From a virus, in the IMG/VR virus record IMGVR_UViG_3300046777_002030, positions 1 to 26,218 of that record: a stretch of DNA of 26,218 nt. One strand, written 5' to 3'. Both the position numbers and the translations under genes were made by a program. The notes beneath the pieces are model-generated. The model did no database searches. It was not told the DNA's origin and saw nothing but the letters and a program-made list of their open reading frames with translations. Positions 1,145 to 20,025 of this stretch are shown piece by piece (within the stretch, counting starts at the first letter, position 1; every line of letters begins with the position of its first letter).

Positions 1145-1231
1145 TTAGTAAGTTTCAGATAATTTTTCTACAGAATAACTCAGAAGCACAAAGAAGGCAA
1201 CTGAGGTAACGGTGAAAAGAACTTCAGTCAT
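1145..1231 (-). CDS. Small single-helix membrane peptide, 28 aa
   Basis: A 28-residue frame starting at ATG 1229-1231. The A of this ATG is also the last base of the preceding hli stop (TGATG), and the frame ends at TAA 1145-1147, just before the Shine-Dalgarno of the next hli. Residues 4-19 are hydrophobic (VLFTVTSVAFFVLLSY), enough for one membrane span, with a short acidic and polar tail. The precise fit between two hli genes argues that it is translated. It resembles the size class of low-molecular-mass photosystem and cytochrome b6f subunits, but I cannot match it to PsbT, PsbM, PsbI, PetN or PsaM. Confidence 0.55.
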   Translation of the reverse strand: MTEVLFTVTSVAFFVLLSYSVEKLSETY

Positions 1232-1461: not shown

Positions 1462-1490
1462 ATTATATAGGAAAAATAAAGGGGTGTCAA
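1462..1490 (-). promoter_or_regulatory. Perfect-consensus sigma70 promoter for the hli-prx unit
   Basis: On the minus strand, TTGACA (1485-1490), 17 nt, then TATAAT (1462-1467). Both hexamers and the spacing are the exact bacterial consensus, typical of early phage promoters read by host RNA polymerase. The start codon of hli is about 28 nt past the -10. The -35 lies inside the pstS terminator hairpin. Confidence 0.85.
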
Positions 1491-1498
1491 GCACCCCT
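1471..1498 (-). terminator. Rho-independent terminator of pstS, overlapping the hli promoter
   Basis: A 7-bp stem (AGGGGTG/CACCCCT) with a 5-nt loop, followed on the minus strand by TTTATTTTT. It lies 38 nt past the pstS stop. The loop and 3' arm contain the -35 of the next promoter, and the T tract forms part of the promoter spacer. Confidence 0.8.
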
Positions 1499-1536
1499 CA
1501 GTATTATTTGATACTTATTTTGTTAGGAAATGCAAA

Positions 1537-2634: not shown

Positions 2635-4137
2635 TCAGAAACGGAAGGTTGTCTGAATCACACCACCATAGTTATCGGAAGCTTGCTTCAGACCTTGGTT
2701 GTTAGACACATAGAAGACAGCAGGAGTCACGCTGATCGCATCGCTAACCTTGTAACGATAGAATGCTTCCCACATAATTGCCTTCTGATCAGCAGCGAGA
2801 GAAGCAGCATTACCAGGAGCACCGATGGCGAAACCAGCGGCATTACCCTTAGCGAATACATCACTCCACTGAAGACCTGCCATCCAAGTTTGTGAATCGG
2901 TAGCAGCGTTAGGAGTCGTGCGGTTGTTAGACAGACTTACGGTGTTCCAACCATAAGCACCACTCACAGAAGGAATGATACCAGACTTCTTGGGTTGCCA
3001 ATAAGCATTCAGAGCATAACCATTGGATGTTTGGTTAGCGCCAAGAGCACCAGAACCACCACCGATAGCATTGAAGTTACGAACACGAGTTCCTTCCGTG
3101 CCGTAACGGTAACCGAAAGCAATACCATACTGAGGAGCACGGTAACCAATCTGAGCAAGAGTGTTCAGAGAACCATCTTCATCAAACTGACCTTTGGTAG
3201 AATCGTTTCCGTTCTGGGCAACATAGTTGATACCAGCAACGAAACCAGGCTTACCTTTCTTGGTAGGTTGAACCCACTGAGCACCGAAACCAGAACCAGT
3301 TGCCTTGTTATAGACGCCAGGAGCACCAGCAACAGAGAAGAAATCAAGAATGTCCGAACGATAGGCAGTAGGAACCCATGCCATCTCAGTGTTACGAACC
3401 AGAGCACCAGCAGTCAGAGTCAGACCTTTGGTAAGGGCAGGGAAACTGTAGTACAGGCGGTCAAGAGTAACTTGGTTAGCATAGGTTTCTGCTTTGTCCA
3501 GTTTGAACAGTGACGAGGAAGAACCGAAGGGTTGACTGGAGAAGTTACCAGAACGCAGACGGGTCTTGAGCAGATCCTTACCAGTGAAGGAAGTATCAAA
3601 ACTGAGGCGGAGGTCATAGTTGAAAGCAGTGTTTCCAACATTAGTGCTGTTAGCAAGACGAGCACCATCTACACCACCCAGAACGAAGGTTGCTTCACCC
3701 TTGAGTTTGGTAGTGGTAGAGAACTGTTGTGCCTGAAGAGCAGCAGTTTGCTTCTCCAGTTTAGCAACACGACCACGAAGAACTTGAAGTTCATTGGCGA
3801 ACTCGGTAGCAAGACGCTGGAGTTCATCGGTGACTTCAGTTACGCGATCAAGGCAAGCATTCAGAAGTGCTGCTGCTTCAAAACGGGTCATTGCCTTACC
3901 ACCAAGGTAAGTTCCGTTTTCATAACCAGCAACGCAACCATAACGCTCAACAAGATTGCTGAGTGCCTGATAAGCCCAATCCGTAGGTTGGACATCAGAA
4001 AGTTGTTTGATACTTGAGACTTGTTCCGAGGAAGTGTATTGGTTGACTGCTGCCATATTAAGGTCTGCGGCATTCGCAGCAACAGGAGCAACCATTCCCA
4101 GAGCAACAGGTGCAAGCATCAGTTGTTTGAGTTTCAT
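2635..4137 (-). CDS. SLH-domain outer membrane porin (SomA/OprB type)
   Basis: 500 residues from the preferred start ATG 4135-4137, which begins with a signal peptide (MKLKQLMLAPVALGMVAPVAANA, cut before ADL). A start at 4167 would put ten polar residues in front. After the signal comes an SLH domain at about 41-98 (QLSDVQPTDWAYQALSNLV, MTRFEAAALLNACLDRV), which in cyanobacterial porins contacts peptidoglycan. A heptad-rich segment follows at about 100-135 (ELQRLATEFANELQVLRGRVAKLEKQ), then an OprB-like beta barrel ending in TTFRF with the terminal Phe used by the outer membrane assembly machinery. It would form a passive channel. A Pho box upstream and pstS downstream suggest a role in phosphate entry, but channel selectivity cannot be read. 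Its length and domain order match host porins, so it is probably host-derived. Confidence 0.9.
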   Translation of the reverse strand: MKLKQLMLAPVALGMVAPVAANAADLNMAAVNQYTSSEQVSSIKQLSDVQPTDWAYQALSNLVERYGCVAGYENGTYLGGKAMTRFEAAALLNACLDRVTEVTDELQRLATEFANELQVLRGRVAKLEKQTAALQAQQFSTTTKLKGEATFVLGGVDGARLANSTNVGNTAFNYDLRLSFDTSFTGKDLLKTRLRSGNFSSQPFGSSSSLFKLDKAETYANQVTLDRLYYSFPALTKGLTLTAGALVRNTEMAWVPTAYRSDILDFFSVAGAPGVYNKATGSGFGAQWVQPTKKGKPGFVAGINYVAQNGNDSTKGQFDEDGSLNTLAQIGYRAPQYGIAFGYRYGTEGTRVRNFNAIGGGSGALGANQTSNGYALNAYWQPKKSGIIPSVSGAYGWNTVSLSNNRTTPNAATDSQTWMAGLQWSDVFAKGNAAGFAIGAPGNAASLAADQKAIMWEAFYRYKVSDAISVTPAVFYVSNNQGLKQASDNYGGVIQTTFRF

Positions 4138-4311
4138 AAAAGATTTGTGTTTTGTACTAAACGACATTGTACACTAGGGGTCAATGAACCCTGTGTGTTT
4201 TGGGATACATGATAACGCGAGTAGTTGGGGCGTCTCTCATGCGTTTGTATTTAGAGCGTCTTAAGTAATTCTTAAGATTGCGTATATATTACTACGATTC
4301 TATGAGGAAGT
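4138..4311 (-). other. Long 5' leader of the porin gene
   Basis: About 170 nt separate the Pho box from the porin start with no convincing gene. The leader holds the -10 at 4297-4302, the palindromic repeat CTTAAG-TAATT-CTTAAG at 4260-4276 (11-bp period, as in Pho boxes) and a late-promoter motif at 4248-4254. I see no known riboswitch. Confidence 0.5.
4248..4254 (-). promoter_or_regulatory. Candidate T4-type late promoter of the porin gene
   Basis: CTAAATA on the minus strand resembles the -10 late promoter element of T4-like cyanophages (NATAAATA class). It lies about 110 nt upstream of the porin start. A 7-bp match alone is weak. Confidence 0.35.
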
Positions 4312-4330
4312 CAACTAAGGGAAGGTTAAG
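4297..4330 (-). promoter_or_regulatory. Pho box and -10 of the porin gene
   Basis: The minus strand reads CTTAACCT-TCC-CTTAGTTG (4330 to 4312), followed by 9 nt and TAGAAT (4297-4302). The first half-site is an exact consensus copy and the second is degenerate. The layout copies the pstS promoter almost base for base, including the TCC spacer. The TAA stop of the dioxygenase gene (4326-4328) lies inside the first half-site. Confidence 0.65.
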
Positions 4331-5393
4331 ACATTGCAATGTGCAGGTTATTCATATCAATTATTCGCCTTTCAGCAAAGTCTTCTTGCAAGAAAGGTTG
4401 ATATTGTTCTCCAATCAATCTATCATAATCAAACTGAATCCTATATCCCAACCTGTTTGGGGCAGTTCCATTTTCTACAGACCTATTATGAAGAGTAATA
4501 CTATTATCAAATAATAATAAGTCATGATCAGTTTGATACTTATGATCGTAAATATATTCTTCAGTAAATAACTCTTCACTAATTTTAACTAAAAGTTTAT
4601 TACTTTCTTCTTTACTCATACCTTTAATATAATCAATAGTCCATGGAGTATAATGCAATCCCTTGATTCCTCCAGGACTTTTAATTACTAAAGGAAACTC
4701 TGAATCATTTTTTGGACACTGATTGCTATGATAATATGATGTTTGAAGTTCATCATATTCAATCATTTTTTCTAAATGCAATCTGTTTTTATCATCAAAC
4801 TCTCTATGTTTTGTTCTGAAGTTGTGAACCAAAATCATTTCATCTAATTCACTTCTAAAAGATTCTGATTGTTTTTCGTACCAATCAACTGTTGTGCAGA
4901 ATCCTGTGGAACTCCCTACCATATGTTCCACACCCATCAAAGAAACCCCAGGAGTGAAAGCTAAACTACCACATTCATTACTATGCCAGTAGAGTTCTCC
5001 ATCACCAAAAAGTCCAAGAGATTGACCCTTTTCATCTTTCTTAGGAGTGATTCTAAGCATTCCAGGGCATTTTCTATCAACAACCCACCTCTTATCATTT
5101 AAAAGATCTCTACGATCCGACTCATCCAAAAGTCTTTTTAACAGAAGTTCTTTTACTGGTTTCCCATACTTTTGATACATCTGTAAGGGTTTGACCCAAC
5201 GAGGATCTCCAAACTTAAGAATTAAATTATAATAAGTTGTATGATCTATTTTACTTCCACGAATAATAGTCACCAAAGAATTAAGATGGATTTTACCAAT
5301 TTCCATCCATTCTTCTTCGGTGATATTGTTTAAATCTATGTCATCAATAAAAACCCCAAATCTACCTAGACCAGGAATTTTAGATATCTTCAT
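4326..5393 (-). CDS. TauD/TfdA-like 2-oxoglutarate Fe(II) dioxygenase
   Basis: 355 residues with the layout of TauD/TfdA-type non-haem iron dioxygenases, which couple 2-oxoglutarate decarboxylation to hydroxylation of a small substrate. The proximal iron motif is LYWHSNE (His137), the distal histidine is in LHNRS (His302) and a 2-oxoglutarate-binding arginine is likely Arg318 in YRIQFD. The usual HxD/HxE is here HSNE, so the carboxylate ligand is either absent (Asn139) or supplied by Glu140. The N-terminus lacks a signal peptide. It is the last gene of the glycan operon, 5 nt after the GT25 stop and the only non-overlapping junction there. Substrate unknown; a sugar or lipid modification is suggested only by neighbours. 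It is visibly more AT-rich than pstS and the porin. Confidence 0.75.
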   Translation of the reverse strand: MKISKIPGLGRFGVFIDDIDLNNITEEEWMEIGKIHLNSLVTIIRGSKIDHTTYYNLILKFGDPRWVKPLQMYQKYGKPVKELLLKRLLDESDRRDLLNDKRWVVDRKCPGMLRITPKKDEKGQSLGLFGDGELYWHSNECGSLAFTPGVSLMGVEHMVGSSTGFCTTVDWYEKQSESFRSELDEMILVHNFRTKHREFDDKNRLHLEKMIEYDELQTSYYHSNQCPKNDSEFPLVIKSPGGIKGLHYTPWTIDYIKGMSKEESNKLLVKISEELFTEEYIYDHKYQTDHDLLLFDNSITLHNRSVENGTAPNRLGYRIQFDYDRLIGEQYQPFLQEDFAERRIIDMNNLHIAMS

Positions 5394-5398
5394 CTTGT

Positions 5399-6205
5399 TT
5401 ACTCTTGGGGTTGTTGGGCTTCAGAAGTTCTACCTAGGTATGGATCATAATCCATAAGTTTCTCAAGTTCCAAATCAGAACCACGATTTTGCCAAAGTTC
5501 TCTTAAACCATCATGAGATCCTCTGTGGAAAATCTCAATATGTTCTGGGTGAATCGAAGAACCAAGTTCAATCTTATATAGGAAAAGAGGAATAGCAAAA
5601 CTATTCCCAGAATTATAAATCAAATCATCAGCAACTGCACGAGGTTTGATATTATAATCAAGTTTATATTTTTCTCCGCGACAATGAAATCTAACAACTT
5701 TCTCTGCATGATGTCTGGTAATGACATAACATGCAGTAGAAAAATCATTTACAAATCTACGATGTAGATTTACATGCAAAGTTCCTGGGCAAATAATTGC
5801 AAGTTGAACTACATCATAGTCGTAAGGAAGTCGTGCAACAAACTGATTCCAGGTAAAGTTCCAATACTTTGCAATACTAATATCGACATCATCTTCCATC
5901 ACCACACAATATGGTGCGTCAGAATTTTCCAAGAAATGTTTAAGAAGTTTGAGGTGAGAGGTTACGCAACCAATCTCACCCGAACTCATATTACTTGGAT
6001 ATCTGCCATGAATAATATCACTTAGGTCATCATTTCTGCCATCATAGGCAGAAATTCTTTCATAGTTATCAATCTCCCAATAAGAAAACATCTCTTCCAT
6101 GTATTCTTTTCTTTCTGGTTGGTCATCCAAATTAATATAATAAATGGGACCAATACCTTTCAATTTATAGGCAGATTTATTCTTATCCATAACTGCAACT
6201 TCCAT
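5399..6205 (-). CDS. Family 25 (LPS-type) glycosyltransferase
   Basis: 268 residues from ATG 6203-6205, which shares its A with the previous stop (TGATG). Later ATGs, such as that at 6190, are possible. GT25 enzymes transfer galactose or glucose in lipooligosaccharide synthesis and collagen modification. Visible hallmarks are the N-terminal IYYINLDDQPER (about 21-32), GEIGCVTSHLKLLKHFL (about 76-92), and the metal-binding acidic motif CVVMEDDVDIS (about 100-110). Downstream are ADDLIYN and the family-typical late His-rich segment. No membrane segment is visible, so a cytoplasmic enzyme acting on a nucleotide-sugar donor is expected. Donor and acceptor are unknown. It is embedded in the glycan operon after a GT11 gene. 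Confidence 0.85.
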   Translation of the reverse strand: MEVAVMDKNKSAYKLKGIGPIYYINLDDQPERKEYMEEMFSYWEIDNYERISAYDGRNDDLSDIIHGRYPSNMSSGEIGCVTSHLKLLKHFLENSDAPYCVVMEDDVDISIAKYWNFTWNQFVARLPYDYDVVQLAIICPGTLHVNLHRRFVNDFSTACYVITRHHAEKVVRFHCRGEKYKLDYNIKPRAVADDLIYNSGNSFAIPLFLYKIELGSSIHPEHIEIFHRGSHDGLRELWQNRGSDLELEKLMDYDPYLGRTSEAQQPQE

Positions 6206-7059
6206 CAGAGAACTTCCCAACCCTCACAATAAAGATCACTGGTGTCCTTATCAGCATAAGCAGGACCAAACCACATCTTAGGTGCTACGATCTTACCAGC
6301 ACCATTTTGCAACCATGCTCCCCACCAAGAAAGTGTAGAGTTTGCAATGATGCCACCTTTGCAATTGGCCATAATACATAGATCAACATAAGGAGTATAA
6401 GATCCGTCAGGATACTTCTCTTCGGGAGTAGAAACATAGAAACGATCTGGTTTGAAAAGTTCTTGTTCAAGAACCCACTCAGGAGAATCGGAAACAACAA
6501 CTACTTCCTGATCCTCAGGGAAGAGTTTAAGAGCTTCTTCATAGTACTCCAGAGGTTGTGGAGGATGTTGTTCAGAACACTGAGTATAAGACCACTTAAA
6601 TCCACGAGCATCTACAAGATTGGGATCACCACGGCGAACATGAAGGAAGATAGGATCTTTCAGTTCATCCAGGAATCCTTTTACAGGGATTGTGAGGTCA
6701 TCATGGAAAGTAAAATCTTTACGAATCTCATCCTTGATGTGTGCAAAATACTTTTCCGATTGAAAAAATCCATGAAGAGATACATCATTTGGACAAAGGT
6801 TAAGTAATTCTTCATCAAAATGAAAGTCCTTTTCCATTACAATAGGTGCAAATCCACGATCAAGAATATATTGATTAGTGGACTTTACACTTTCCATAAG
6901 GAAACAATTTGCAAGACTATAGTTATCCACCCTAGGAGTAGAAAATGGTGGGATACACCACTCATATCCTTTGTGTGCAGCAATCCCTCTAAGTGCTGCA
7001 TACTGGAACATCTGATTTCCCAGACGACCATTATTACCTAATTCATTAAATGCTAACAT
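6205..7059 (-). CDS. GT11 glycosyltransferase, copy A (fucosyltransferase fold)
   Basis: 284 residues, the usual length for GT11 alpha-1,2-fucosyltransferase-like enzymes. The N-terminal family motif GRLGNQMFQYAALRG is at 11-25, the GDP-sugar-binding motif HVRRGD at 140-145, and the C-terminal motif NSTLSWWGAWLQ at 240-251. All three are intact. This copy keeps the canonical donor motif, unlike the other two paralogues in this operon. The start overlaps the previous GT gene by 14 nt and the stop overlaps the GT25 start by one base. GT11 enzymes normally use GDP-L-fucose; with a GDP-mannose 3,5-epimerase at the operon head, GDP-L-galactose is a plausible alternative donor (inference). Confidence 0.88.
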   Translation of the reverse strand: MLAFNELGNNGRLGNQMFQYAALRGIAAHKGYEWCIPPFSTPRVDNYSLANCFLMESVKSTNQYILDRGFAPIVMEKDFHFDEELLNLCPNDVSLHGFFQSEKYFAHIKDEIRKDFTFHDDLTIPVKGFLDELKDPIFLHVRRGDPNLVDARGFKWSYTQCSEQHPPQPLEYYEEALKLFPEDQEVVVVSDSPEWVLEQELFKPDRFYVSTPEEKYPDGSYTPYVDLCIMANCKGGIIANSTLSWWGAWLQNGAGKIVAPKMWFGPAYADKDTSDLYCEGWEVL

Positions 7060-7864
7060 TTAGTTGTTCCCTCCGTTCTTTTAGATATGGTTGCAGTGAA
7101 TAATAAGCTTTTACATCATCACGGCCAAATGTTCTTATTTTTTGCCAGAGATTATGATTATCCATAAACTTTGGATTATGATAATGTGAGTTAAAAGTTC
7201 TACCGTGTTCAAAGTGATAGATGTCATCATTGACTCTACCTACTTTATAACCTAAACAATTTAGGCGGAAATAAAACTCACAATCTTCGGCACCCCAAGA
7301 AATAAAGTTTTCATTCCAAAGACCCATTTCAATTTCAACTGATCTCTTAATCATTTGACCCCAACCAATAGAAGAGGCAACTCTATATCGTAGTCCATCA
7401 AGAACATTAATATTAAAATTGGAATCAAGAAATTGATTAAAAATAGGCTCTGGATAATTTACAGCCCATTGATATACCCCACATCCAAAAGGATAGACAG
7501 CATCTGCATGGTCTTTGATTGCATTATAAGCAGTTTTTACACTATTGGTTGGTAAAATAACATCCACATCATGATTATAAACGATCTCAGTATCAGAAGC
7601 AACTAGAAGATCATTTAAGATGCGAGTTTTGTGAAAAAACTTTTCATCACTTTCTTCATATATGTGAGTTAATTGTTTTGTATCAGCATACTTACTAATT
7701 ACAGGAAGTGCTCTGAACTTAAAATGAGAATGAGAATCTACTTCTTTAACTATTACTTTTGATTCTGGATAATTTTTTAAAATAAAAGTAACAGAAGTGA
7801 CTACATTTCGGAGTCTATCTTCGGACTCAATGCGACAGGGTAATAAAAATGTTAAATCTTTCAT
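7046..7864 (-). CDS. GT-A glycosyltransferase (GT2/GT7-like)
   Basis: 272 residues from ATG 7862-7864, which overlaps the previous stop in an ATGA. A longer frame to 7909 is less likely. The N-terminus (LTFLLPCRIESEDRL) is typical of a GT-A beta-alpha-beta nucleotide-binding start. The metal-binding motif is HDVDVILP. The C-terminal half has WGAEDCEFYFRLNCLG followed by HFEHGR, the pattern of the galactosyltransferase/chondroitin-synthase C-terminal domain (Glyco_transf_7C type). It therefore probably transfers a UDP-linked sugar by inversion. It sits between two GT11 paralogues, apparently inserted into a GT11 tandem array, and is more AT-rich than them. Acceptor unknown. Confidence 0.8.
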   Translation of the reverse strand: MKDLTFLLPCRIESEDRLRNVVTSVTFILKNYPESKVIVKEVDSHSHFKFRALPVISKYADTKQLTHIYEESDEKFFHKTRILNDLLVASDTEIVYNHDVDVILPTNSVKTAYNAIKDHADAVYPFGCGVYQWAVNYPEPIFNQFLDSNFNINVLDGLRYRVASSIGWGQMIKRSVEIEMGLWNENFISWGAEDCEFYFRLNCLGYKVGRVNDDIYHFEHGRTFNSHYHNPKFMDNHNLWQKIRTFGRDDVKAYYSLQPYLKERREQLNVSI

Positions 7865-8757
7865 GTTTCTGCAGGAACTGGAGACGGATCGTTGTGAATT
7901 TTGATCCACCTTTCAGGGATCATATCTTTCATATTGTAATGAGCGTAAGCAGGTCCGAACCAAGGATCGGGAGCAACAACTTTACCCGTATCATTCTGCA
8001 ACCATGCACCCCACCAACTCAGAGAAGAGTTAGCAATAATTGCACCACCACATAGACTCATGAGGCAAAGATCAATATAGGGGACGGCAGCACCATCTCC
8101 AAAGGTCTCATAAGAAGAATCGGAGAACTGGAATCGTTCACCTTGAAGCCAATCTTGACGCTTACACCAATCAATAAGATCTGATACAACGATCACATTC
8201 TTATCTTCTGGGAATTGTTTTAGAGCTTCAAGATAATAATCAATTTTACAAAGTGGGTGGTATTCTTGTACCATCTGATAAGACCACTTTTCACCTCTCC
8301 GACCAGTAAGATTTGGAGAACCGCGACGAACATGCAAAAAGATGCAATTGTCACGACCACCAAGCGAATCAACAAACTCTTGACAAGGTTCAAGATATGC
8401 TTTCTTAAAAGTGAAATCCTCACGGATAGACGAGGCAATGGCCTCAAAGTACCTCTCCGTTTGGAAGTTACCCGAAAAATTCGTATTGTCCTCGCAATTG
8501 TTGAAGATATCTTCATTGAAATGCATATCCCTATACTCTACAGTTTTGTAGAAGGGTTCTCCAGTGTTCTTATTTAGATCACAGTTAGTGAGTTCAAATG
8601 CATCAAACAACCCATAGTTATCCAGACGATCCGCTTCTGGTCCAGGAATTACCCAATCAAATCCACGATTCGCAGCAAGACCACGGATAAATGCGTATTG
8701 AAACATTTGGTTTCCGAGGCGCCCCTCGTTACCAAGTCCTTTAAATGATACAGCCAT
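7861..8757 (-). CDS. GT11 glycosyltransferase, copy B
   Basis: 298 residues with GT11 hallmarks: GRLGNQMFQYAFIRG at 12-26, the donor motif HVRRGS at 142-147 and NSSLSWWGAWLQ at about 243-254. The final Asp of the usual HxRRGD is Ser here. Like copy A it has a short insertion after this motif containing RRGEKWSY (copy A: ARGFKWSY), so A and B are closer to each other in this region than to copy C. The ATG at 8755-8757 overlaps the previous stop by one base (TAATG). Cytoplasmic transfer from a GDP-sugar is expected. The altered donor motif could mean changed donor choice or reduced activity. Confidence 0.87.
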   Translation of the reverse strand: MAVSFKGLGNEGRLGNQMFQYAFIRGLAANRGFDWVIPGPEADRLDNYGLFDAFELTNCDLNKNTGEPFYKTVEYRDMHFNEDIFNNCEDNTNFSGNFQTERYFEAIASSIREDFTFKKAYLEPCQEFVDSLGGRDNCIFLHVRRGSPNLTGRRGEKWSYQMVQEYHPLCKIDYYLEALKQFPEDKNVIVVSDLIDWCKRQDWLQGERFQFSDSSYETFGDGAAVPYIDLCLMSLCGGAIIANSSLSWWGAWLQNDTGKVVAPDPWFGPAYAHYNMKDMIPERWIKIHNDPSPVPAET

Positions 8758-9617
8758 TACTTACTCCACTCTTGAATAATCCAACGATCAGGTACGATGT
8801 CTGAAGTATCTAGGTGAGTCATTGCAGTACCAAACCACTTCTTAGGATCTGGAGCAACTACCTTACCACGATCATTTTGCAACCAAGCTCCCCACCAAGA
8901 GAACGATGAGTTTGCAACAATAGCACCAGAACACAGACTCATCAGACACAGATCAACCTGTGGTAGAAGAGTATTCTGCATTTGTCCAGTACCATCAATG
9001 GTACGATATGTATATCTACCATTACTTTCATTAAACAGGAAACGATCCTGTTTAAAAAATTCCTGAGACTTACACCACTCAATGTCGTCCGTAAAGACAA
9101 AACAAGGAGTGTCTTCTGGGAATTGTTTTAACGCATCTTCAAAAAATCTAATCGGGAGGATGGGATGGTATTGTTCTCTCCCAATATTGTCACTTTGTCT
9201 AATATGCAAAAAGATAGGATTAACGCCCAGAGAATCAATGTACTCCTTACAAGGATCAAGATAATCTTTTCTAAAAGTGAAGTCCTCACGGATCTCCTCT
9301 GCAATGTGGCTGAAATATTTTTCAGTCTGGAAATATCCATCAAGACTCACATTATCGGGACATTCTTCAAAAAACTCTGGAATAAAACAATGGTCATTCT
9401 CTTGTATATATTGTCCATCAACAAATCCAATGTTGGATTCCTTAACATTTGTAAGTTCAAATGTTTCAAAGAGACCATAGTTGTCTTTATGGTCATAAGT
9501 ATCTGGAGGAATACACCAATCATATCCTCGTTTTGCAGCAATTCCTCTGAGTGCTGCATACTGAAACATCTGATTTCCCAGACGACCATTACTTCCTAGT
9601 CGGTTATATCCAATCAT
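8757..9617 (-). CDS. GT11 glycosyltransferase, copy C
   Basis: 286 residues with the N-terminal motif GRLGNQMFQYAALRG at 11-25 and a C-terminal NSSFSWWGAWLQ, so clearly GT11. The donor motif is HIRQSD (138-143), where the second Arg and the Gly of HxRRGD are replaced, although the first Arg and the Asp are kept. It lacks the KWSY insertion of copies A and B. Its start overlaps the UDP-sugar dehydrogenase stop by four bases (ATGA), so the two are translationally coupled. It is probably an active enzyme because the fold-defining motifs are intact, but donor use may differ. Confidence 0.87.
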   Translation of the reverse strand: MIGYNRLGSNGRLGNQMFQYAALRGIAAKRGYDWCIPPDTYDHKDNYGLFETFELTNVKESNIGFVDGQYIQENDHCFIPEFFEECPDNVSLDGYFQTEKYFSHIAEEIREDFTFRKDYLDPCKEYIDSLGVNPIFLHIRQSDNIGREQYHPILPIRFFEDALKQFPEDTPCFVFTDDIEWCKSQEFFKQDRFLFNESNGRYTYRTIDGTGQMQNTLLPQVDLCLMSLCSGAIVANSSFSWWGAWLQNDRGKVVAPDPKKWFGTAMTHLDTSDIVPDRWIIQEWSK

Positions 9618-10759
9618 AACTTAATTGCAAATGTATTAATTTTTTCTGGTGGTTCGCCAAAGTGTATTCTATCACCATATTGGTCGGTTAACAACCCTTC
9701 TACTTGTTTAATAATATGTGGATTGTCTGAAACATAGACTTCATAACCTGCATCCAAAAGATCAAGGCAAAGTTTATATTGTTGACTTTCGGTTAAAATA
9801 TCAGTACCTTTCTTATATGAAATATAGTCAAAGTGGAAGGGAAGTCTGTCAACATTTTTATTGATGAAATAATTTTTCAAGAACTTTGCATGTTCATTAT
9901 TGAAATCATCAGTAGTTGTACCAAGATTATACTTCAGTCCAAGTCTTTCTGCATACCTACCGAATGATCTATTATCTCTAGGCAAACAAGGGCCACCAAA
10001 TCCAAAACCAAATTTTAGATACTTACTTCCAATTCTAGAATCACTTGCAATAGATGCAAGAACGGATTCAATTTCATTTTCAAGTCCAGAAAGAATGAGA
10101 ACCTCTCCGATCATATTTGCAAAACTAATTTTAGTTGTCATGAAACAGTTGACTGCAATCTTAACTATTTCTGCAGCCGTAGACGACATAATAGAGATGA
10201 CTGGTTTAGTAACTTGAATTTTCTTGTAGATTTCAGACAGAGTTTCCAAAACCTCTGCATTGTCTCCACCAATCAGAACCATATCTGCATGAGTCAGATC
10301 CTTAATGATAGATCCTTGTGCAATAAATTCAGGATTATAAACAACACTTACTCCATAAGACTTAAGTTGTTCTTGGAATCTTGCACAATCGCCTGGATTC
10401 GTAGTACATCCAACAACCAATGTTTTACCTTCAACATTAGGAGATTCTTGGAAGTCACGAACAACATCCCATACAGAACTTACATCATAAGAACCATCGT
10501 CTAAAGATGGAGTTGCAACTAAAGTAAAGATAATATCACATTCTGCAATCACTTTTTTATTATCAGTGGTTGCTTCAAGATACTTAGCTTGTTTCAGATG
10601 TTCTTGTACAAATGGTTCTGTACTAGAAATGATTTTTTTGTTGAGGTTTTCTACATAATCCTCACGAATGTCAGAGACCAGGACATCATATCCTGCATTC
10701 TCCATGAGAAGTGCAAGACAAATTCCTAGTCTTCCTGCGCCGATTAATCCAATTTTCAT
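9614..10759 (-). CDS. UDP-glucose/GDP-mannose 6-dehydrogenase family enzyme
   Basis: 381 residues, consistent with bacterial UDP-glucose dehydrogenases, which oxidise a nucleotide hexose to its uronic acid using two NAD+. The NAD-binding motif GAGRLG is at 7-12. The catalytic cysteine is Cys258 in FGFGGPCLPRDN, with supporting Lys200 and Asn204 in AEIVKIAVNCFMTTKISFANM. The C-terminal UDP-binding domain is present (YISYKKGTDILTESQ). UDP-glucose, giving UDP-glucuronate, is the likeliest substrate, but GDP-mannose or a UDP-HexNAc cannot be excluded by eye. It overlaps the NAD synthetase gene upstream and copy C of GT11 downstream by four bases each. The product would be a uronic acid donor for the operon's transferases. 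Confidence 0.88.
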   Translation of the reverse strand: MKIGLIGAGRLGICLALLMENAGYDVLVSDIREDYVENLNKKIISSTEPFVQEHLKQAKYLEATTDNKKVIAECDIIFTLVATPSLDDGSYDVSSVWDVVRDFQESPNVEGKTLVVGCTTNPGDCARFQEQLKSYGVSVVYNPEFIAQGSIIKDLTHADMVLIGGDNAEVLETLSEIYKKIQVTKPVISIMSSTAAEIVKIAVNCFMTTKISFANMIGEVLILSGLENEIESVLASIASDSRIGSKYLKFGFGFGGPCLPRDNRSFGRYAERLGLKYNLGTTTDDFNNEHAKFLKNYFINKNVDRLPFHFDYISYKKGTDILTESQQYKLCLDLLDAGYEVYVSDNPHIIKQVEGLLTDQYGDRIHFGEPPEKINTFAIKL

Positions 10760-11547
10760 AGCTTAAATGTCGGAATTTCTACCATCTTGTGTTTGTTTTG
10801 CATGTGGAACTTCTGGTACACATTGATTGCATTAGTTTGTTCTTCATTCAAGAACAATGGATCTTCAGAAAGTCCCTTTTCCATAACCCATTCTAACATT
10901 GCATAAGAAGTTCCAATCTGATCTTCATCAGTTCTACCATCATCCCAAAGACCATCGGTAGGTGGTGCAGAAATAATTCTCTCATCAACACCTAGATGTT
11001 CACCAAGTCTCCACACTTCAGTCTTATAAAGATCTGCGATAGGAGCAATGTCAATGCCACCATCACCATACTTAGTGTAAAATCCTACACCATAATCTTC
11101 AACCTTATTACCAGTTCCAACAACAATACCATTTACTGTTGTGGCAACTTGATATAAAGTTACCATACGGATACGGGAACGAGTATTGGCTTGTGCAAGT
11201 TTATTTGTTGCAAAGTTTTCACCAATATCATTAGAGATGGTTTGAAGGAAAGAATCATAGACCGAGCTCATATCAGTCTTGATAAACTTTACATTATTAA
11301 ACTTGGATTCCAACCACTTACCATGAGCATCAGAAAGAGACTCCTGATTCTCAAGTTGGTTGATGGGCATTCCAACCACATAAGTTGGCATACCAGTCAA
11401 AGCACAAAGAGTAGAAACCACAGAGGAGTCAATTCCTCCAGAGATTCCTACTACAAGACTCTTGATTTTGGGATGAGTAAGACAATACTCAGAAATCCAT
11501 CCCACAATCCTATCTTCTAATTCATCATAGTCTTTGATACGATTCAT
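10756..11547 (-). CDS. nadE: Ammonia-dependent NAD+ synthetase
   Basis: 263 residues, the size of the NH3-dependent NadE form without a glutaminase domain. NadE makes NAD+ from nicotinate adenine dinucleotide, ATP and ammonia. The PP-loop motif SGGIDSS is at 36-42 (VVGISGGIDSSVVSTLCALTG), followed by the deamido-NAD/ATP-binding part ARSRIRM-like NTRSRIRMVTLYQVA, then GTGNKVEDYGVGFYTKYGDGGIDIAPIADLYKTEV, all typical. It overlaps the sugar dehydrogenase gene by four bases, so the two products are probably made together; that enzyme consumes NAD+. Another possibility is topping up host NAD against NAD-depleting defence systems. It is unusual inside a glycan operon. Confidence 0.9.
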   Translation of the reverse strand: MNRIKDYDELEDRIVGWISEYCLTHPKIKSLVVGISGGIDSSVVSTLCALTGMPTYVVGMPINQLENQESLSDAHGKWLESKFNNVKFIKTDMSSVYDSFLQTISNDIGENFATNKLAQANTRSRIRMVTLYQVATTVNGIVVGTGNKVEDYGVGFYTKYGDGGIDIAPIADLYKTEVWRLGEHLGVDERIISAPPTDGLWDDGRTDEDQIGTSYAMLEWVMEKGLSEDPLFLNEEQTNAINVYQKFHMQNKHKMVEIPTFKL

Positions 11548-12323
11548 GATTCCTTTACCTTGGCGAGAATTACAGTGTTTTCGTAATCTTTATTTGTAGT
11601 GAACTCAAAACGCTCACCCATTCTTTCGGTAAACTTATTATAGTAGAAATCATTAAAGTTGACAAGATTGTAAATGATATAACCATACTTGGCATCAGAT
11701 ACCAACTTATCATAATAGTTCACCTGAGTATCATAATCACATTCGGAAAGAGCATAATTACTGATAAACAGATCAACATCCTTTACTTCTTCAACATCAT
11801 CACAACTAACGAACTTACACTTTGCATAAAGTTCTGGGAAGTTCTTAAGATACTTTTCTTGGACTGCAACGGCTTCTGGAAGATCTACAAGAATATATTC
11901 ATCAAAATCACAGACAACACTCAAGGTCTTACAAAGTCCGCCATACCCACCACCAACTTCTACTACACGACTGATGGGTGCATCACCGAGAAGAGTCGCC
12001 ATCTCAAATACATTCTTGATATATCGGATCGTAGTGGGAGAGATTTTACCCGTTTCTGGATAAGAGAATTTATCGGGGGTTCCGATAGTATCATTCTCTT
12101 TAAATCCTTCCAAATTTTCTAGAAGTGCATCTCCAGCCATTTCCATAGCAACTTGAAGATACTCTGCACCCTGACGAGGAGTAACATGTTCTAGAATATT
12201 CTTATACCCTTGCAAAGATTTAAACTTCGCAAAGATATCATCATCTTCAACTGCACTACGACAGGTTTCCAGATAATCAACTGCAATCTGTTCTTCGGCT
12301 TCCCAGCCTTTATAAGTACTCAT
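11544..12323 (-). CDS. Putative sugar O-methyltransferase
   Basis: 259 residues from ATG 12321-12323, which overlaps the upstream stop as ATGA. A TTG-type longer start is not needed. The SAM-binding motif VVEVGGGYGGLC is at 120-131, followed by ILVDLPEAVAVQEKYL, a pair seen in the putative sugar O-methyltransferase family, where VVEIGGGYGG and a DLPE-type segment recur. FISNYALSEC forms the later SAM-fold strand. No membrane segment. The likely role is capping or decorating a sugar hydroxyl in the glycan made by this operon. The family assignment is from memory of motif order. Confidence 0.75.
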   Translation of the reverse strand: MSTYKGWEAEEQIAVDYLETCRSAVEDDDIFAKFKSLQGYKNILEHVTPRQGAEYLQVAMEMAGDALLENLEGFKENDTIGTPDKFSYPETGKISPTTIRYIKNVFEMATLLGDAPISRVVEVGGGYGGLCKTLSVVCDFDEYILVDLPEAVAVQEKYLKNFPELYAKCKFVSCDDVEEVKDVDLFISNYALSECDYDTQVNYYDKLVSDAKYGYIIYNLVNFNDFYYNKFTERMGERFEFTTNKDYENTVILAKVKES

Positions 12324-13123
12324 TTCCAGTAATTCTCGTATAGGTAATCTTCTGCTACAGGCCAATCCATAGCTCGTTCAAAGTTATCCTTGATAGCATC
12401 CATTTTAGAATAATAAAGATCTTCTGTCAATGTAGAAATATCAAAGTCATCGTCCAAGAATATAATTCCATCCTCGTTGAAATACTCTGTTACTCCTCTA
12501 CATCCGTAGAAGATAGGAATTGTTCCTGTGGCAAAACAATCCGTTAGTTTCTCTGTAAAGTATGTATCATACACGGCATTCTCTACGGCCACGGAGAACA
12601 TATAATCCCTAAGACCCTCTTCTTTACAGGAAATATCTTTAAATCCCCTACCATAAAGATCTACGGAATCTTTAAACTTATTCACAAACTCAAGTCTCTT
12701 ACGATGTCCTGGCACATAAGACTTATTGGATGAGATCATTGAAACCAATTTTGTCTTTTCAAAGATTTGTCTATCTTCTACCCAAGGAGCTGCATTACTG
12801 ATAGTGTATTTAAATGCATCACTATTGACCTCACAAAGTTTTTTATCGCAAGTAAAAATTGCTTCAGTTCTATAAGATAGAAATGGATAATTCATTTTGA
12901 CAAAATCCCAAACATCGGCAATAACTTGTTTAGATTCCAAAAGCCAAATATATTTGGGTATTTTTTCAATATCTTCCATTACTTTTGGAATTAAGTTATT
13001 AACATATAACTTAATTTGGCCTGATCCATCACGAACCCATTCAACATGTTTTGCAACATTTTTATCTGAAGTAGATGGAAGAAGGGAATCGTTACAAAAA
13101 AGATTTACTTTAAATTTGTTCAT
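12320..13123 (-). CDS. GT10 glycosyltransferase (alpha-1,3/4-fucosyltransferase fold)
   Basis: 267 residues. The GT10 signature is clear: YGRGF (157-161), then FSVAVENAVYDTYFTEKL (176-193) followed by DCFATGTIPIFYG (195-207), where Glu181-Asn182 and Glu191-Lys192 correspond to the conserved donor-site residues of alpha-1,3-fucosyltransferases. The N-terminal acceptor half is short and unlike eukaryotic enzymes, as in bacterial GT10 proteins. No heptad-repeat tail or membrane anchor is present. Overlaps: 14 nt with the SDR gene upstream and 4 nt with the methyltransferase downstream. The normal donor is GDP-L-fucose; GDP-L-galactose from the operon's epimerase is an alternative. Confidence 0.85.
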   Translation of the reverse strand: MNKFKVNLFCNDSLLPSTSDKNVAKHVEWVRDGSGQIKLYVNNLIPKVMEDIEKIPKYIWLLESKQVIADVWDFVKMNYPFLSYRTEAIFTCDKKLCEVNSDAFKYTISNAAPWVEDRQIFEKTKLVSMISSNKSYVPGHRKRLEFVNKFKDSVDLYGRGFKDISCKEEGLRDYMFSVAVENAVYDTYFTEKLTDCFATGTIPIFYGCRGVTEYFNEDGIIFLDDDFDISTLTEDLYYSKMDAIKDNFERAMDWPVAEDYLYENYWK

Positions 13124-13961
13124 TCTTCATAGCCTCAAATACTTTGGCAATACCCTGTTCAATTGTAGTTTTTGGAGTCCACCACTTCATCAAATAAGTG
13201 TCTGGTCGATTCCTTTTATCAAGTTGAACACTATCCTTTTCAGTTGATGGTTGCACCTTAACATCATACTTACCCATCAAATTAAATTGACCGCAAATCA
13301 TGCTCGCAATATCAATGACCTTTGTAGAGTGGAAACTGGTGATGTGAAGATTGTCTTCAGAAGTAAAGTCATCGTAGTTTTCCATGATTGTTTCAAGCGC
13401 TTCGCAGCAGTCCTCTGCGTATAGAAACTCTCGTTCCTCTTGACCATCAGTAAGCATGTCAATAACACCAGTTTCAAAACCTTTGCGGATGAAGTCCGTA
13501 ATGACATGGGATTTTTCGTGATCCTTTTCAATTCCATAAACATTCCAAAACTTAACAATCAATCCATTCAATGACTTAGTATAAAGTTCACCTACATTCT
13601 TGAGAACTCCATATGGAGAGTAACTCATGTTACTCATTTGAGATGATGCGAAAATGAATCTCTTATTATACTTCTTAAGAAGTCCAAATGCATTGACCAT
13701 CAGACGACCATTGTTATCAATGAATTGGAAAGTATGTTGATACTTCTTGAGATAACGAGATCCACCTACATCAAATGCAAGGAAAAATACAAAGTCACTA
13801 TCCATAATTACCCGATGAAGTTCGGGATTAGGAATAATTGTCATGTCTTGGTGTTCACCATTCACAACATCAAACTCGTGAACTTCATGACCCTTACCAC
13901 GAAGATATTCTGTTAGGTAGGCACCAATCTGCCCACTTGAACCTAGTACTGTAATTTTCAT
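13110..13961 (-). CDS. Extended SDR nucleotide-sugar epimerase/dehydratase
   Basis: 283 residues of the extended short-chain dehydrogenase family. The NAD(P)-binding motif GSSGQIG is at 7-13. The active site has Ser106/Ser107 and the YxxxK pair Tyr117-Lys121 (SPYGVLKNVGE), followed by the typical NVYG segment (FWNVYGIEKD) and an EFLYAEDCCEAL strand. It is shorter than most epimerases of about 310-340 residues, but no key residue is missing. The substrate cannot be read; the family includes 4-epimerases, 4,6-dehydratases and reductases on nucleotide sugars. It could act after the GME at the operon head. The ATG overlaps the previous stop by one base (TGATG). Confidence 0.82.
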   Translation of the reverse strand: MKITVLGSSGQIGAYLTEYLRGKGHEVHEFDVVNGEHQDMTIIPNPELHRVIMDSDFVFFLAFDVGGSRYLKKYQHTFQFIDNNGRLMVNAFGLLKKYNKRFIFASSQMSNMSYSPYGVLKNVGELYTKSLNGLIVKFWNVYGIEKDHEKSHVITDFIRKGFETGVIDMLTDGQEEREFLYAEDCCEALETIMENYDDFTSEDNLHITSFHSTKVIDIASMICGQFNLMGKYDVKVQPSTEKDSVQLDKRNRPDTYLMKWWTPKTTIEQGIAKVFEAMKNEQI

Positions 13962-14530
13962 CAGACAATAGTAATTTCGTGTGCGTTTCCAAAATTGACG
14001 ATACCAGTTCCACTCATATGAGCAATCTCAGTAACATCAAACTTTTCTTCGGGAATCTCATCCCACATCAGTTGAATGTCAGGCCAACCAGGACCGATAT
14101 CATCATGAATCAAAATACCTTTCCAACCTTTGTCACGCAACCAATCCATCATGACTCTTTCCTGAGCTCCATCATGGGGATCTACATCAATCATGACGAT
14201 AGGAATATTATCCCAATCAAGAGTTTCATCTTCCATGAAATCCATGATCTTCCAGGTAATGTTATCTTTCTTGATAGAACTTGCACCCTGTTCTACAAGA
14301 TCATAACTAATTACTTGATTAGTCGGATTATAAGAAAGAGCGAGAGCGGATCCACCAGTACGAGTACCAACATCCAGAATAGTGGCTTTATTAAAGAAAG
14401 TGGAGAGGTAGGCATAAAGTCTATACTCGCTTTGACCTGCAGGAAGCCAGTCATTTTGATTGAGAGACATATCTCTCAGATGACTAACATCCAAATCTTT
14501 TACATGTTGTTTTACAATTTCAATTTTCAT
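13961..14530 (-). CDS. SAM-dependent methyltransferase (class I)
   Basis: 189 residues from ATG 14528-14530, which overlaps the GME gene by 11 nt. The longer frame to 14557 has no better context. The SAM-binding motif ILDVGTRTGG is at 51-60, and the catalytic or metal-proximal strand IVMIDVDPHDG at about 111-121, with ILIHDDIGPG later. This resembles small O-methyltransferases of the Methyltransf_24 type found in glycan and natural-product loci. No membrane segment. Probable role: O-methylation of a sugar; acceptor unknown. Confidence 0.78.
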   Translation of the reverse strand: MKIEIVKQHVKDLDVSHLRDMSLNQNDWLPAGQSEYRLYAYLSTFFNKATILDVGTRTGGSALALSYNPTNQVISYDLVEQGASSIKKDNITWKIMDFMEDETLDWDNIPIVMIDVDPHDGAQERVMMDWLRDKGWKGILIHDDIGPGWPDIQLMWDEIPEEKFDVTEIAHMSGTGIVNFGNAHEITIV

Positions 14531-15581
14531 TATTCTTCTTAGCAATTTGTTCAGCAATCCATGCGTATGTCTTACGAATACCTTCTTCTAGAGTCTGAGA
14601 ATAATCCCAACCGAGTTCTCTGCGAACCACATCATTGTTGGAATTACGACCGCGAACACCCAGAGGAGCATCAAGTTTGTGCTGTCTCTGGACATTTTTA
14701 CCAGAAACTTTTGCAGCAGTTTCAACAAGTTGATTAATGGTTACCATTTCCTCAGAACCAATATTGACTGGTCCTATGAAATTAGAATCCATCATTCTAC
14801 GGGTTGCTTCGATGCATTCATCAATATACAGGAAGGAACGAGTTTGTAAGCCGTCTCCCCACACCTCGATGGTTCCACCTTCCTCTGGAAGGTAGGCGAC
14901 CTTGCGGCAGATTGCTGCAGGGGCTTTTTCTCTTCCACCTTCCCAGGTCCCTTCGGGGCCAAAGATATTATGATAACGAGATACGCGAACAGGTATGCCG
15001 TAGTTCCGATGATAAGCAAAGTATAGTCGTTCTGAAAAAAGTTTTTCCCAACCATATTCCGAATCGGGGTTAGCAGGGTAAGCGGATTCTTCACGGCAAT
15101 CAGGGTTATCGGGATCTAGTTGATTATGTTCTGGATACATGCAAGCAGAACCAGAATAGAAAATCTTAGTAGTGTTCTTACCAACTCGTTCATTCATCTG
15201 ACGCTGCATCTCAAGCACATTCAGATTAATCGTGACTGAATTGTGCATGATATCCGCATCATTTTCGCCAGTGAAAACAAATCCCGCACCGCCCATATCA
15301 GCAGCGAACTGATAGATCTCATCAAAAGACTGGATATAACGATAGGGAACTGACTGATAGAAGTTACCACGATCCCCTTTGTACTCAAGTACACGACGAA
15401 CAAACTCCACATCCCGAAGATCTCCCTGAATGAATTCATTAGCTTCGGTAGGAGAAAACTCTGGACGCTTGAGGTCTACACCACGAACCCAATAACCTTC
15501 AGATCGCAGTCTCTTAACCATATGACTTCCGATAAAGCCACCGGCACCAAGTACAAGTGCCTTCTTAATATATTGACTCAT
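14520..15581 (-). CDS. GDP-mannose 3,5-epimerase
   Basis: 353 residues from ATG 15579-15581. It closely follows the plant GDP-mannose 3,5-epimerase, which makes GDP-L-galactose (and GDP-L-gulose) from GDP-mannose. The NAD-binding motif GAGGFIG is at 12-18, then FAADMGGAGF. The active site has SGSACMYPE (Ser145, Cys147), Tyr176-Lys180 in YGWEKL, and Lys219 in GTWEGGREKAPAAICRK. GDGLQTRSF and GVRGRNSNND are also diagnostic. Relative to the plant enzyme, as I recall it, Cys145, Tyr174, Lys178 and Lys217 are each shifted by exactly two. The in-frame extension back to 15869 runs through the promoter and terminator and is not coding. It is the first gene of the glycan operon and is preceded by a terminator-promoter module. 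Confidence 0.92.
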   Translation of the reverse strand: MSQYIKKALVLGAGGFIGSHMVKRLRSEGYWVRGVDLKRPEFSPTEANEFIQGDLRDVEFVRRVLEYKGDRGNFYQSVPYRYIQSFDEIYQFAADMGGAGFVFTGENDADIMHNSVTINLNVLEMQRQMNERVGKNTTKIFYSGSACMYPEHNQLDPDNPDCREESAYPANPDSEYGWEKLFSERLYFAYHRNYGIPVRVSRYHNIFGPEGTWEGGREKAPAAICRKVAYLPEEGGTIEVWGDGLQTRSFLYIDECIEATRRMMDSNFIGPVNIGSEEMVTINQLVETAAKVSGKNVQRQHKLDAPLGVRGRNSNNDVVRRELGWDYSQTLEEGIRKTYAWIAEQIAKKNNEN

Positions 15582-15615
15582 ATTTTGATCAAAAATAATA
15601 ATCTCTTTAGTATAT

Positions 15616-15644
15616 ATTATACTAAAAAAGGTGGGTTTATGCAA
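15616..15644 (-). promoter_or_regulatory. Sigma70-type promoter of the glycan operon
   Basis: Minus strand: TTGCAT (15639-15644), 17 nt, TATAAT (15616-15621), about 35 nt before the GME start. The -35 spans the loop of the upstream terminator hairpin and the spacer contains its T tract. It is the only clear promoter seen for the 13-gene operon. Confidence 0.75.
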
Positions 15645-15651
15645 CCCACCT
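15622..15651 (-). terminator. Rho-independent terminator overlapping the glycan operon promoter
   Basis: A 9-bp stem, AGGTGGGTT/AACCCACCT (15629-15637 with 15643-15651), and a 5-nt loop, followed on the minus strand by TTTTTTAG. It ends the upstream unit that starts at 17936. Confidence 0.85.
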
Positions 15652-15803
15652 CTGTAACTCAGGCTCGCCACCAATTTTGAGTACGAGAAAATTGGAAACT
15701 CGGCGGGGTTTCCCCATCCACACCAGTCGGCATATTTAATGTCCAGTCCGACGAGGACATAAGGGGTCATTTTGACTCCACCACTTGGTTTTAAGAAACC
15801 AAG
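15652..15803 (-). ncRNA. Structured untranslated region, possible small RNA
   Basis: About 140 nt with no good gene lie between the 75-residue membrane protein and the terminator. On the minus strand they can form CTTGGTTT/AAACCAAG (15784-15803, around the stop codon), ATGTCC/GGACAT, GGGG-AAA-CCCC, and CCAATTTT/AAAATTGG inside an outer CGCC/GGCG pairing. With the terminator at 15629-15651 this looks like the body of a structured 3' RNA. All three reading frames give short peptides. No named RNA family is recognised. Confidence 0.4.
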
Positions 15804-16018
15804 AAAAGTTGGGTTAACTTTGATATCTCGGTAATACCAAAGAATGCACATAAGAATAGTACATCCCAAAGTTTGAGTTTAATAGCAAAAGGTACTGTAA
15901 GAAAACCTCCAATACACTTTAACAATAAACCGTTTTTGAAATCTCCCCATAACATGATTTGATAACCAATTATAAGGAAAAGGTTCCCAAGATATCTTAG
16001 GACACTTGTTTTAGACAT
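15791..16018 (-). CDS. Small membrane protein, 75 aa
   Basis: A 75-residue, strongly hydrophobic protein with two or three membrane segments (YLGNLFLIIGYQIMLWGD; LLLKCIGGFLTVPFAIKL; WDVLFLCAFFGITEISKL). A GGGAG Shine-Dalgarno lies about 13 nt before the ATG. It resembles conserved short hypothetical membrane proteins that I associate with cyanomyoviruses, but no function is known to me. It follows the 2OG oxygenase gene after a 51-nt gap containing a perfect 8-bp hairpin (16045-16067). Confidence 0.7.
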   Translation of the reverse strand: MSKTSVLRYLGNLFLIIGYQIMLWGDFKNGLLLKCIGGFLTVPFAIKLKLWDVLFLCAFFGITEISKLTQLFLVS

Positions 16019-18392: not shown

Positions 18393-18421
18393 ATAGTAAC
18401 ACTAATGATCCTTCTTGTCAA
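18393..18421 (-). promoter_or_regulatory. Sigma70-type promoter of the tRNA-Pro unit
   Basis: Minus strand: TTGACA (18416-18421), 17 nt, TACTAT (18393-18398), 11 nt before the tRNA-Pro 5' end. The -35 overlaps the TGA of the halogenase gene. No terminator separates them, so halogenase transcripts may read into the tRNAs. Confidence 0.75.
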
Positions 18422-19998
18422 GTGTAAAATTTTTTTTGTAAATATTCAAAAAGTGTTGGAGAATTTTCAGCGACTTGATTCCATTTGACTTTTAATTGAT
18501 CCCAAGAATTATCAATCTGATTAACCAATTCCACAGGATTAAATGTTTTATTGTAAAAATTTTGATTTAAAATATGTTCTTTTGATAAGAAATTATAATT
18601 TAATCCATTAGATATACATGCAACACCATTAAAAGCATCATGTTGGTGGATTAAATTTTTTCTTACAACTGCAGAATAAAATGTATCGTACATATCTCCG
18701 TCTACAATTCTGTTGGAAGTAGAAATTTTTGAAACATATTTCCAATATTCACTATCATCTCTTTGAGAAAGTAAATAGTGCAATGAAACAAATTTACAAA
18801 ATCCATCATATTTTCTCTTACATACTAAATTATATCCATCGACATCCCATTGATTTACATTTTCTCTTTCAATAATATTTACTAATTGCATTAAAAATTC
18901 ATGTACAGTAAAAAGACCATTACTTTCTAATGGTTCTATAAACCCTGCAGATAGTCCTATAGCTACTACATTTTTAACCCAAGTTCTTTCATGAATACCT
19001 ATCCTCATTTCAATATCTTTAAAAGATAAATCTTCAGTTATTCTTTCTTCACATGAAATTGTAGTCTTTGTTTTCAAGAATTGTTTAAACTCCTCCAAAG
19101 CATCTTCCTTAGAAATAAATTTATCGCTGTAAACATATCCGGTTCCAATACGAGACCATAAAGGAATATTCCAAACCCATCCATTAGAAATAGCTGTGCA
19201 ATTAGTATAAGGTTCTAATTCTACTTTTTTATCAATATAGGGGATTTGTGTAGCCCATGCCCTATTATTTGGAATAATGTCATTATATGAAATAAAAGGT
19301 TCTTTTAAAGATGAACCAATCAATAAACTTTTCCAACCAGTACAATCAATAAAAAGATCAGCAAAAAGTTCTGTACCATCATCTAATATAACTTTTTCCA
19401 CTCCATCATCATTTACACATACTTTTTTTATTTCAGATCTAATTCTCTGTACTCCTTTAGGTTGACAATAATTATTAGCTAACCACTCAGCAAAAAGAGT
19501 TGCATCAAAATGATACGCTGAATCAGTTCTTAAACAAAAATTTTCAAGTTCCCCATTATCATTTTCATTTATTTTATTTTTTTCAATCAAAGAAACTATT
19601 GGATAGTGACATAAAGCATAATCACTTGCAGGAGTTTCTGGTTTAAATATTTTTTTATACAACCAACTTTTGGATCCCAACATAAAACAAGGGCCCATAA
19701 ATGGATTACCAAATGGATAATGAAAACTACCAGAATTTTTTTTATAAAAGTCAGTAAATTTTATACTTAACTTCAACGAAGCATTTGTATATTTAAAAAA
19801 ATCTTTTTCATCTATACCCAAACAATCTACCCAAAATTTAATATAACCCAATGTACTTTCACCTACACCAATAATTGGAATATTGGGACTTTCTACTACT
19901 GTAATATCTTTATTAGGAAAAAATTTAATTAAAGTTGAAGCTGACATCCAACCAGCAGAACCTCCACCTACTATAACAATTTTATTTGACTTATACAT
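18418..19998 (-). CDS. Flavin-dependent halogenase (tryptophan halogenase family)
   Basis: 526 residues from ATG 19996-19998, the full length for PrnA-type halogenases, which use FADH2, O2 and halide to chlorinate or brominate an aromatic substrate. The FAD motif GGGSAGW is at 11-17 and GVGESTLGYIK near 45. Lys76 in NASLKLSIKF matches the catalytic Lys79 of PrnA. WVWNIP at 274-279 is the halogenase WxWxIP signature, and FIEPLES includes Glu355 equivalent to PrnA Glu346. So the reaction core is intact. The segment that contacts tryptophan in PrnA (YETFDYEFKNFW) is poorly matched here (YDTFYSAVVRKNL), so the substrate may not be tryptophan. A flavin reductase is not encoded nearby. The gene is strikingly AT-rich: 15 G/C in the 60 bases 18421-18480, against 31 in 20761-20820. 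It has its own promoter. Confidence 0.9.
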   Translation of the reverse strand: MYKSNKIVIVGGGSAGWMSASTLIKFFPNKDITVVESPNIPIIGVGESTLGYIKFWVDCLGIDEKDFFKYTNASLKLSIKFTDFYKKNSGSFHYPFGNPFMGPCFMLGSKSWLYKKIFKPETPASDYALCHYPIVSLIEKNKINENDNGELENFCLRTDSAYHFDATLFAEWLANNYCQPKGVQRIRSEIKKVCVNDDGVEKVILDDGTELFADLFIDCTGWKSLLIGSSLKEPFISYNDIIPNNRAWATQIPYIDKKVELEPYTNCTAISNGWVWNIPLWSRIGTGYVYSDKFISKEDALEEFKQFLKTKTTISCEERITEDLSFKDIEMRIGIHERTWVKNVVAIGLSAGFIEPLESNGLFTVHEFLMQLVNIIERENVNQWDVDGYNLVCKRKYDGFCKFVSLHYLLSQRDDSEYWKYVSKISTSNRIVDGDMYDTFYSAVVRKNLIHQHDAFNGVACISNGLNYNFLSKEHILNQNFYNKTFNPVELVNQIDNSWDQLKVKWNQVAENSPTLFEYLQKKFYT

Positions 19999-20025
19999 TA
20001 ACAACGCATACTATGATATAAAAAA

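Follow-up and report, generated by a model that had tools for sequence, protein, structure and literature searches.

Promoter-early stem-loops (PeSLs), which Arbiol in 2010 and Comeau in 2014 are said to have described, are reportedly composite terminator-promoter cassettes of T4-like phages. When PeSLs were searched for in S-PM2, few were found, according to the passages of that study that deal with them (PMC4503421). The wcaG RNA (RF01761), a candidate riboswitch since 2010, is described in the wcaG passages of three papers as acting in cis to regulate the genes that it precedes (PMC2864571, PMC9602691, PMC9964418). In cyanomyoviruses, sigma-70 -35 and -10 motifs and a hairpin have been placed upstream of the auxiliary gene psbA (PMC5931967), and a terminator near a promoter is known to let released RNA polymerase restart nearby (PMC11347151). 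The locus analyzed here lies in a viral sequence of 26,218 nucleotides (IMG/VR record IMGVR_UViG_3300046777_002030), which is referred to as the window throughout. It joins a terminator hairpin and a promoter in one short unit, beside a wcaG RNA.

Anatomy of the composite and its surroundings

The minus-strand sequence 15653-15616, AGAGGTGGGTTGCATAAACCCACCTTTTTTAGTATAAT, comprises 38 bases in which a terminator and a promoter share nucleotides (Table 1). An earlier note on this DNA had proposed a fused layout at 15616-15651, with TTGCAT across the hairpin loop, a T tract in the spacer and TATAAT at 17 nt; every one of these parts is found there, on the minus strand. Folding of the hairpin yields -17.2 kcal/mol (z -5.2), a value that none of 200 shuffled sequences reached. 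As a -35 box, TTGCAT is weak, matching three of the six consensus bases (TTG), and promoter-like matches in the whole window number 65, against 62.9 expected by chance. Both of these figures favor a chance overlap between an ordinary terminator and an AT-rich promoter-like match, a reading that is weighed below against the behavior of the unit in related phages. A hairpin that stabilizes a 5′-UTR is an unlikely interpretation, since transcription is predicted to start 3′ of the structure.

Table 1. Coordinates of the two composites and of the features around them, in window positions.
Feature	Positions	Strand	Remarks
Terminator hairpin	15627-15653	-	11 bp, loop of 5; terminator scan, fold, compensatory changes in relatives
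-35 box TTGCAT	15639-15644	-	TT paired in the stem, GCAT in the loop
Promoter spacer	15622-15638	-	17 nt
Terminator T tract	15624-15629	-	within the promoter spacer
-10 box TATAAT	15616-15621	-	17 nt past the -35 box
wcaG RNA (RF01761)	15657-15760	-	directly 5′ of the hairpin; 57.3 bits, gathering score 42
Weak wcaG-like unit	15769-15848	-	overlaps the end of the 75-aa ORF; 22.3 bits, below cut-off
Upstream 75-aa ORF	15791-16018	-	phrog_2318, function unknown
NAD-dependent nucleotide-sugar epimerase gene	14520-15581	-	first gene of the glycan operon
Glycan operon	about 4326-15581	-	tightly packed, mostly overlapping genes on one strand
First composite	1462-1499	-	GAGGGGTGCTTGACACCCCTTTATTTTTCCTATATAAT; TTGACA-17-TATAAT, 12/12; conserved before hli in relatives
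Hairpin of the first composite	within 1462-1499	-	GAGGGGTGCTTGACACCCCTT
hli (high-light-inducible protein) gene	1231-1434	-	3′ of the first composite; phrog_178

The unit had also been assigned to the head of the glycan operon, correctly so, as the epimerase gene starts just 3′ of it. In relatives whose first gene encodes a cytidylyltransferase, the module still stands at the operon head. Products encoded by the operon include epimerases, GT10 and GT11 glycosyltransferases, an NAD synthase, a UDP-sugar dehydrogenase and a TauD-like dioxygenase. The epimerase frame (14520-15869, minus strand) stays open for 96 codons 5′ of the ATG, across the hairpin and the wcaG RNA, which is probably due to chance.

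The first composite of the window, located between a pstS-like gene and the hli gene, shares the layout of the glycan-operon unit and differs from it in sequence, again as had been claimed. Adjoining the pstS-like gene, the phage carries a gene whose product is an SLH-domain, OprB-type carbohydrate porin (2635-4167, minus strand). Elsewhere in the window, a perfect TTGACA-17-TATAAT (20054-20026) is found upstream of an AT-rich, tryptophan-halogenase-like gene (18418-20004, minus strand; Pfam E 6e-108).

Recurrence and conservation of the fused layout

The frequency of the layout was assessed in 1.76 Mb of cyanophage contigs by pairing each terminator with each promoter scoring at least 10/12 within 100 nt, and a pair was counted as fused when no more than 4 nt separated the -35 box from the centre of the hairpin. 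By this definition, 64 of the 108 distinct terminator/promoter pairs were fused, compared with 0.5 in shuffled sequences, although the contigs had been chosen by epimerase or hli and the 64 pairs are consequently dominated by two homologous places. A broader view is provided by five long phage sequences analyzed end to end (944 kb), which contain nine fused units, 0-4 in each genome where shuffles give about 0.05, with two of the nine representing a single weak match that is repeated. Host DNA (1.14 Mb, largely from Prochlorococcus) contained no fused unit, a result that argues against a host origin of the module.

Fused pairs fall into two registers, at about -1.5 (the wcaG/epimerase type) and about +1.5 (the hli type), the hairpin centre of the latter being about 3 nt further upstream. 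The genes 3′ of the modules are most often those for epimerases (53), hli (36) and cytidylyltransferases (6). Single modules precede a CatB-like acetyltransferase gene, psbA and an RlpA-like gene, and others stand before small genes of unknown function. Clusters with TTTCCA, TTCAGA or TTCTCA, apparently chance matches inside genes, were left out of the evidence. The fused module before hli constitutes a second, independent register, kept at 33 or so hli loci. There, the last base of the -35 box is pulled into the stem and covaries with it (TTGACA, TTGACC or TTGACG), making the conflict between stem and promoter visible.

The earlier note had taken two cases in one window as a sign of a recurring module and not of chance, to be given up if the frequency did not exceed that in shuffled sequence. 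Both counts lie far above the shuffles and the stem covaries, so the recurrence is borne out. However, the units are confined to a few defined loci, and with so few per genome they do not mark operon borders in general. This is a genuine module that recurs at low density.

Conservation was followed in 80 epimerase relatives encoded on viral contigs. A strict script recovered the composite upstream of 48 of them, with a spacer of 17 nt in 45; the other three have the same spacer if TTGCAC is taken as the -35 box. The -35 variants in these relatives are TTGCAT, TTGACA, TTTACA and TTGTCA. The core of the stem is paired in all distinct sequences of both sets (31/31 and 14/14), with as many as four kinds of Watson-Crick pair at one position, counts for which the detector itself requires a hairpin, a bias from which loci selected by wcaG are free. 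The TT of the -35 box and the -10 box remain fixed while the stem bases change. Compensatory stem changes combined with fixed promoter boxes indicate that selection acts on an RNA-type structure and on a promoter sequence in one place. An operator centred on the -35 box and recognized by its sequence was considered and rejected, because the stem sequence varies freely as long as pairing is kept.

The wcaG RNA beside the unit

The RNA immediately 5′ of the hairpin was absent from the earlier note, and its presence changes the meaning of the module. Its covariance-model score lies well above the family's gathering score, and it begins about 30 nt past the stop codon of the upstream 75-aa ORF. 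At 41 of the 48 epimerase loci that bear the composite, a wcaG RNA ends 6-19 nt before the hairpin. Conversely, all 41 wcaG-bearing epimerase loci carry the composite, compared with 7 of the 39 others (Fisher p 7e-16); at an additional locus (L045), wcaG is degenerate and no such hairpin is present. Searches with the Rfam model identified wcaG in 34 of 50 phage records, including the isolate SynMITS9220M01, in which 8 nt separate the end of the RNA from the composite at 147738. Among 26 distinct wcaG loci for which the Rfam model was the sole criterion, a hairpin directly follows the RNA in 24, a promoter lies inside it in 21 and a T tract is present in 18. A search of 20 cyanobacterial genomes for wcaG returned no match, and neither did its positive control.

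The association with wcaG completes the case against the chance overlap introduced above. Set against the weak -35 box and the chance-level count of promoter-like matches are the enrichment over shuffles, the covariation of the stem, the composite at every wcaG-bearing epimerase locus and the empty host sample. The histogram of offsets and the conservation of the unit already refute coincidence, the probability of which is negligible.

The position of the promoter bears on what kind of element wcaG is. In a 5′-UTR riboswitch, the promoter of the downstream gene lies 5′ of the RNA. Yet none of 50 wcaG loci has a promoter of at least 10/12 in the 150 nt 5′ of the RNA (a weaker or more distant one may exist), whereas 27 of the 50 have one within 90 nt on the 3′ side. 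With a promoter 3′ of wcaG and no strong one just 5′ of it, the predicted start of the glycan operon falls 3′ of wcaG, which would then end the upstream RNA. This arrangement suggests that wcaG is a 3′-terminal structure of the upstream transcript and not a leader of the genes downstream of it. As a promoter almost always lies no more than about 20 nt past wcaG, the RNA would no longer open one message but close another.

The same proximity can be read in terms of attenuation. According to this alternative, wcaG senses a ligand and thereby sets termination or read-through into the glycan operon at the hairpin, and the promoter inside the hairpin offers a second, unregulated entry. The wcaG passages of PMC2864571 rank the RNA as a probable riboswitch, and a location 6-19 nt before a terminator is the usual place of an aptamer ahead of its expression platform. 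In addition, the 5′ arms of the hairpins pair slightly better with their own wcaG than with that of other loci (permutation p 0.022), but the effect is small and the permutation ignores relatedness. Moreover, transcripts started from a strong promoter within the hairpin would escape the switch, and no fixed alternative pairing is visible, given that the stem varies freely and wcaG is conserved. The absence of the T tract at the tRNA-gene loci described next also speaks against attenuation, which appears unlikely overall.

At six loci (L174, L177, L186, L187, L189 and L190), wcaG precedes tRNA genes and is followed by a hairpin whose loop holds TTGACA, with TATAAT 17-18 nt further on. These loci retain wcaG, hairpin and promoter without the T tract, and termination is therefore not the sole role of the unit everywhere.

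A further observation concerns the sequence upstream of wcaG. In the window (minus strand, 16062-15660) and upstream of wcaG at loci L169-L198, wcaG apparently corresponds to the final two units of a tandem array. In each unit, TGGT[C/G]G or TGGCG stands between a variable hairpin on its 5′ side and a short one on its 3′ side, and the units are spaced about 45-59 nt apart. The arrays reach four to five units and are strand-specific, TGGTGGAGTCA and TGGTGCGGATGG each occurring 69 times on one strand and never on the other. This hairpin-UGGU array is possibly an undescribed repeated RNA module.

Proposed working and comparison with known systems

The unit is probably a fused terminator-promoter at which one transcript hands over to the next. 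Coming from the upstream unit, host RNA polymerase would transcribe wcaG, make the hairpin and come off at the T tract. As a sigma-70-type promoter with its -35 box in the loop, a 17-nt spacer and TATAAT, this stretch of DNA would be bound by the next polymerase, or by the same one, and would start the glycan-operon transcript with a short leader of about 27 nt. As judged from sequence patterns, both termination and initiation would thus take place at the unit in the cell, and the composite may insulate operons from read-through. Phage genomes read in one direction could in this way mark operon borders for only 38 bases, and the fused unit, as a compact natural insulator, could be tried in cyanobacterial engineering.

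A more speculative extension is that stopping on top of a promoter reloads the polymerase, because the bacterial enzyme, once it has terminated at a hairpin, can remain on the DNA and initiate again from the closest promoter (PMC11347151). Having just finished the wcaG RNA, a polymerase would then start the auxiliary genes, and the fused layout would represent an extreme form of recycling. In its fullest version, wcaG is no 5′ leader riboswitch but closes a hairpin-UGGU array with which the upstream transcript ends or which is set free as a small RNA, the terminator of wcaG is also the promoter of the next operon, and polymerase is reloaded on the spot for auxiliary genes. We put this version forward tentatively and with considerable doubt.

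Another explanation is that the unit is kept mainly as a short stretch of homology for swaps between phages, a mobile PeSL-like recombination cassette whose regulatory activity makes the swaps viable. The wcaG RNA and hairpin do precede different genes in different phages, and PeSL-mediated shuffling has been reported for other T4-like phages, as cited in the PeSL passages of PMC4503421. However, the widely differing stem sequences offer little homology, the units are scarce in each genome, and the same passages (Puxty et al.) judge PeSL-driven shuffling unlikely in S-PM2. Recombination as the main reason for retention is therefore improbable, even more so than attenuation.

Compared with the systems introduced at the outset, the fused terminator-promoter shows both parallels and departures. 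Polymerase recycling was described for separate terminator and promoter sites and for the Escherichia coli enzyme, not for cyanobacteria (PMC11347151), whereas the bases are shared here. The cyanomyovirus psbA motifs likewise combine sigma-70 boxes and a hairpin upstream of an auxiliary gene, and a fused module lies 169 nt before psbA in one contig (L113). In contrast, the hairpin of that study was placed in the 5′-UTR and joined neither to the promoter nor to termination (PMC5931967). As for wcaG, the window provides a member in a T4-like cyanophage before exopolysaccharide-type genes, in accordance with the description of the family (wcaG passages of PMC2864571). The catalogued RNA is a cis-regulatory leader; here, a promoter intervenes, so that the RNA is predicted to be the 3′ end of the upstream transcript. 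The wcaG passages of PMC2864571, PMC9602691 and PMC9964418 make no mention of a terminator-promoter after the RNA.

The likeness to PeSLs is broader, comprising a short unit in which an intrinsic terminator is joined to an early promoter of the sigma-70 type, in one orientation, at the border of a gene cassette in T4-like phages. For comparison, the PeSL layout was taken from the RB49 sequence (99 kb) and not from PeSL descriptions. RB49 has eight tandem units, with the promoter centre 29-45 nt past the hairpin centre, and no fused ones, whereas cyanophage units are mostly fused, with the -35 box in the hairpin loop and the T tract serving as promoter spacer. A 50-kb piece of KVP40 contained no fused unit. 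Instead of the high density of PeSLs in variable genome regions, the cyanophage genomes hold 0-4 fused units each, and the unit is tied to the wcaG RNA. Should PeSL descriptions include fused layouts, the novelty would shrink to the occurrence in cyanophages and the coupling to wcaG. With its layout compared with the RB49 sequence only, the cyanophage module is predicted to belong with the PeSLs, as a fused variant that would work like one.
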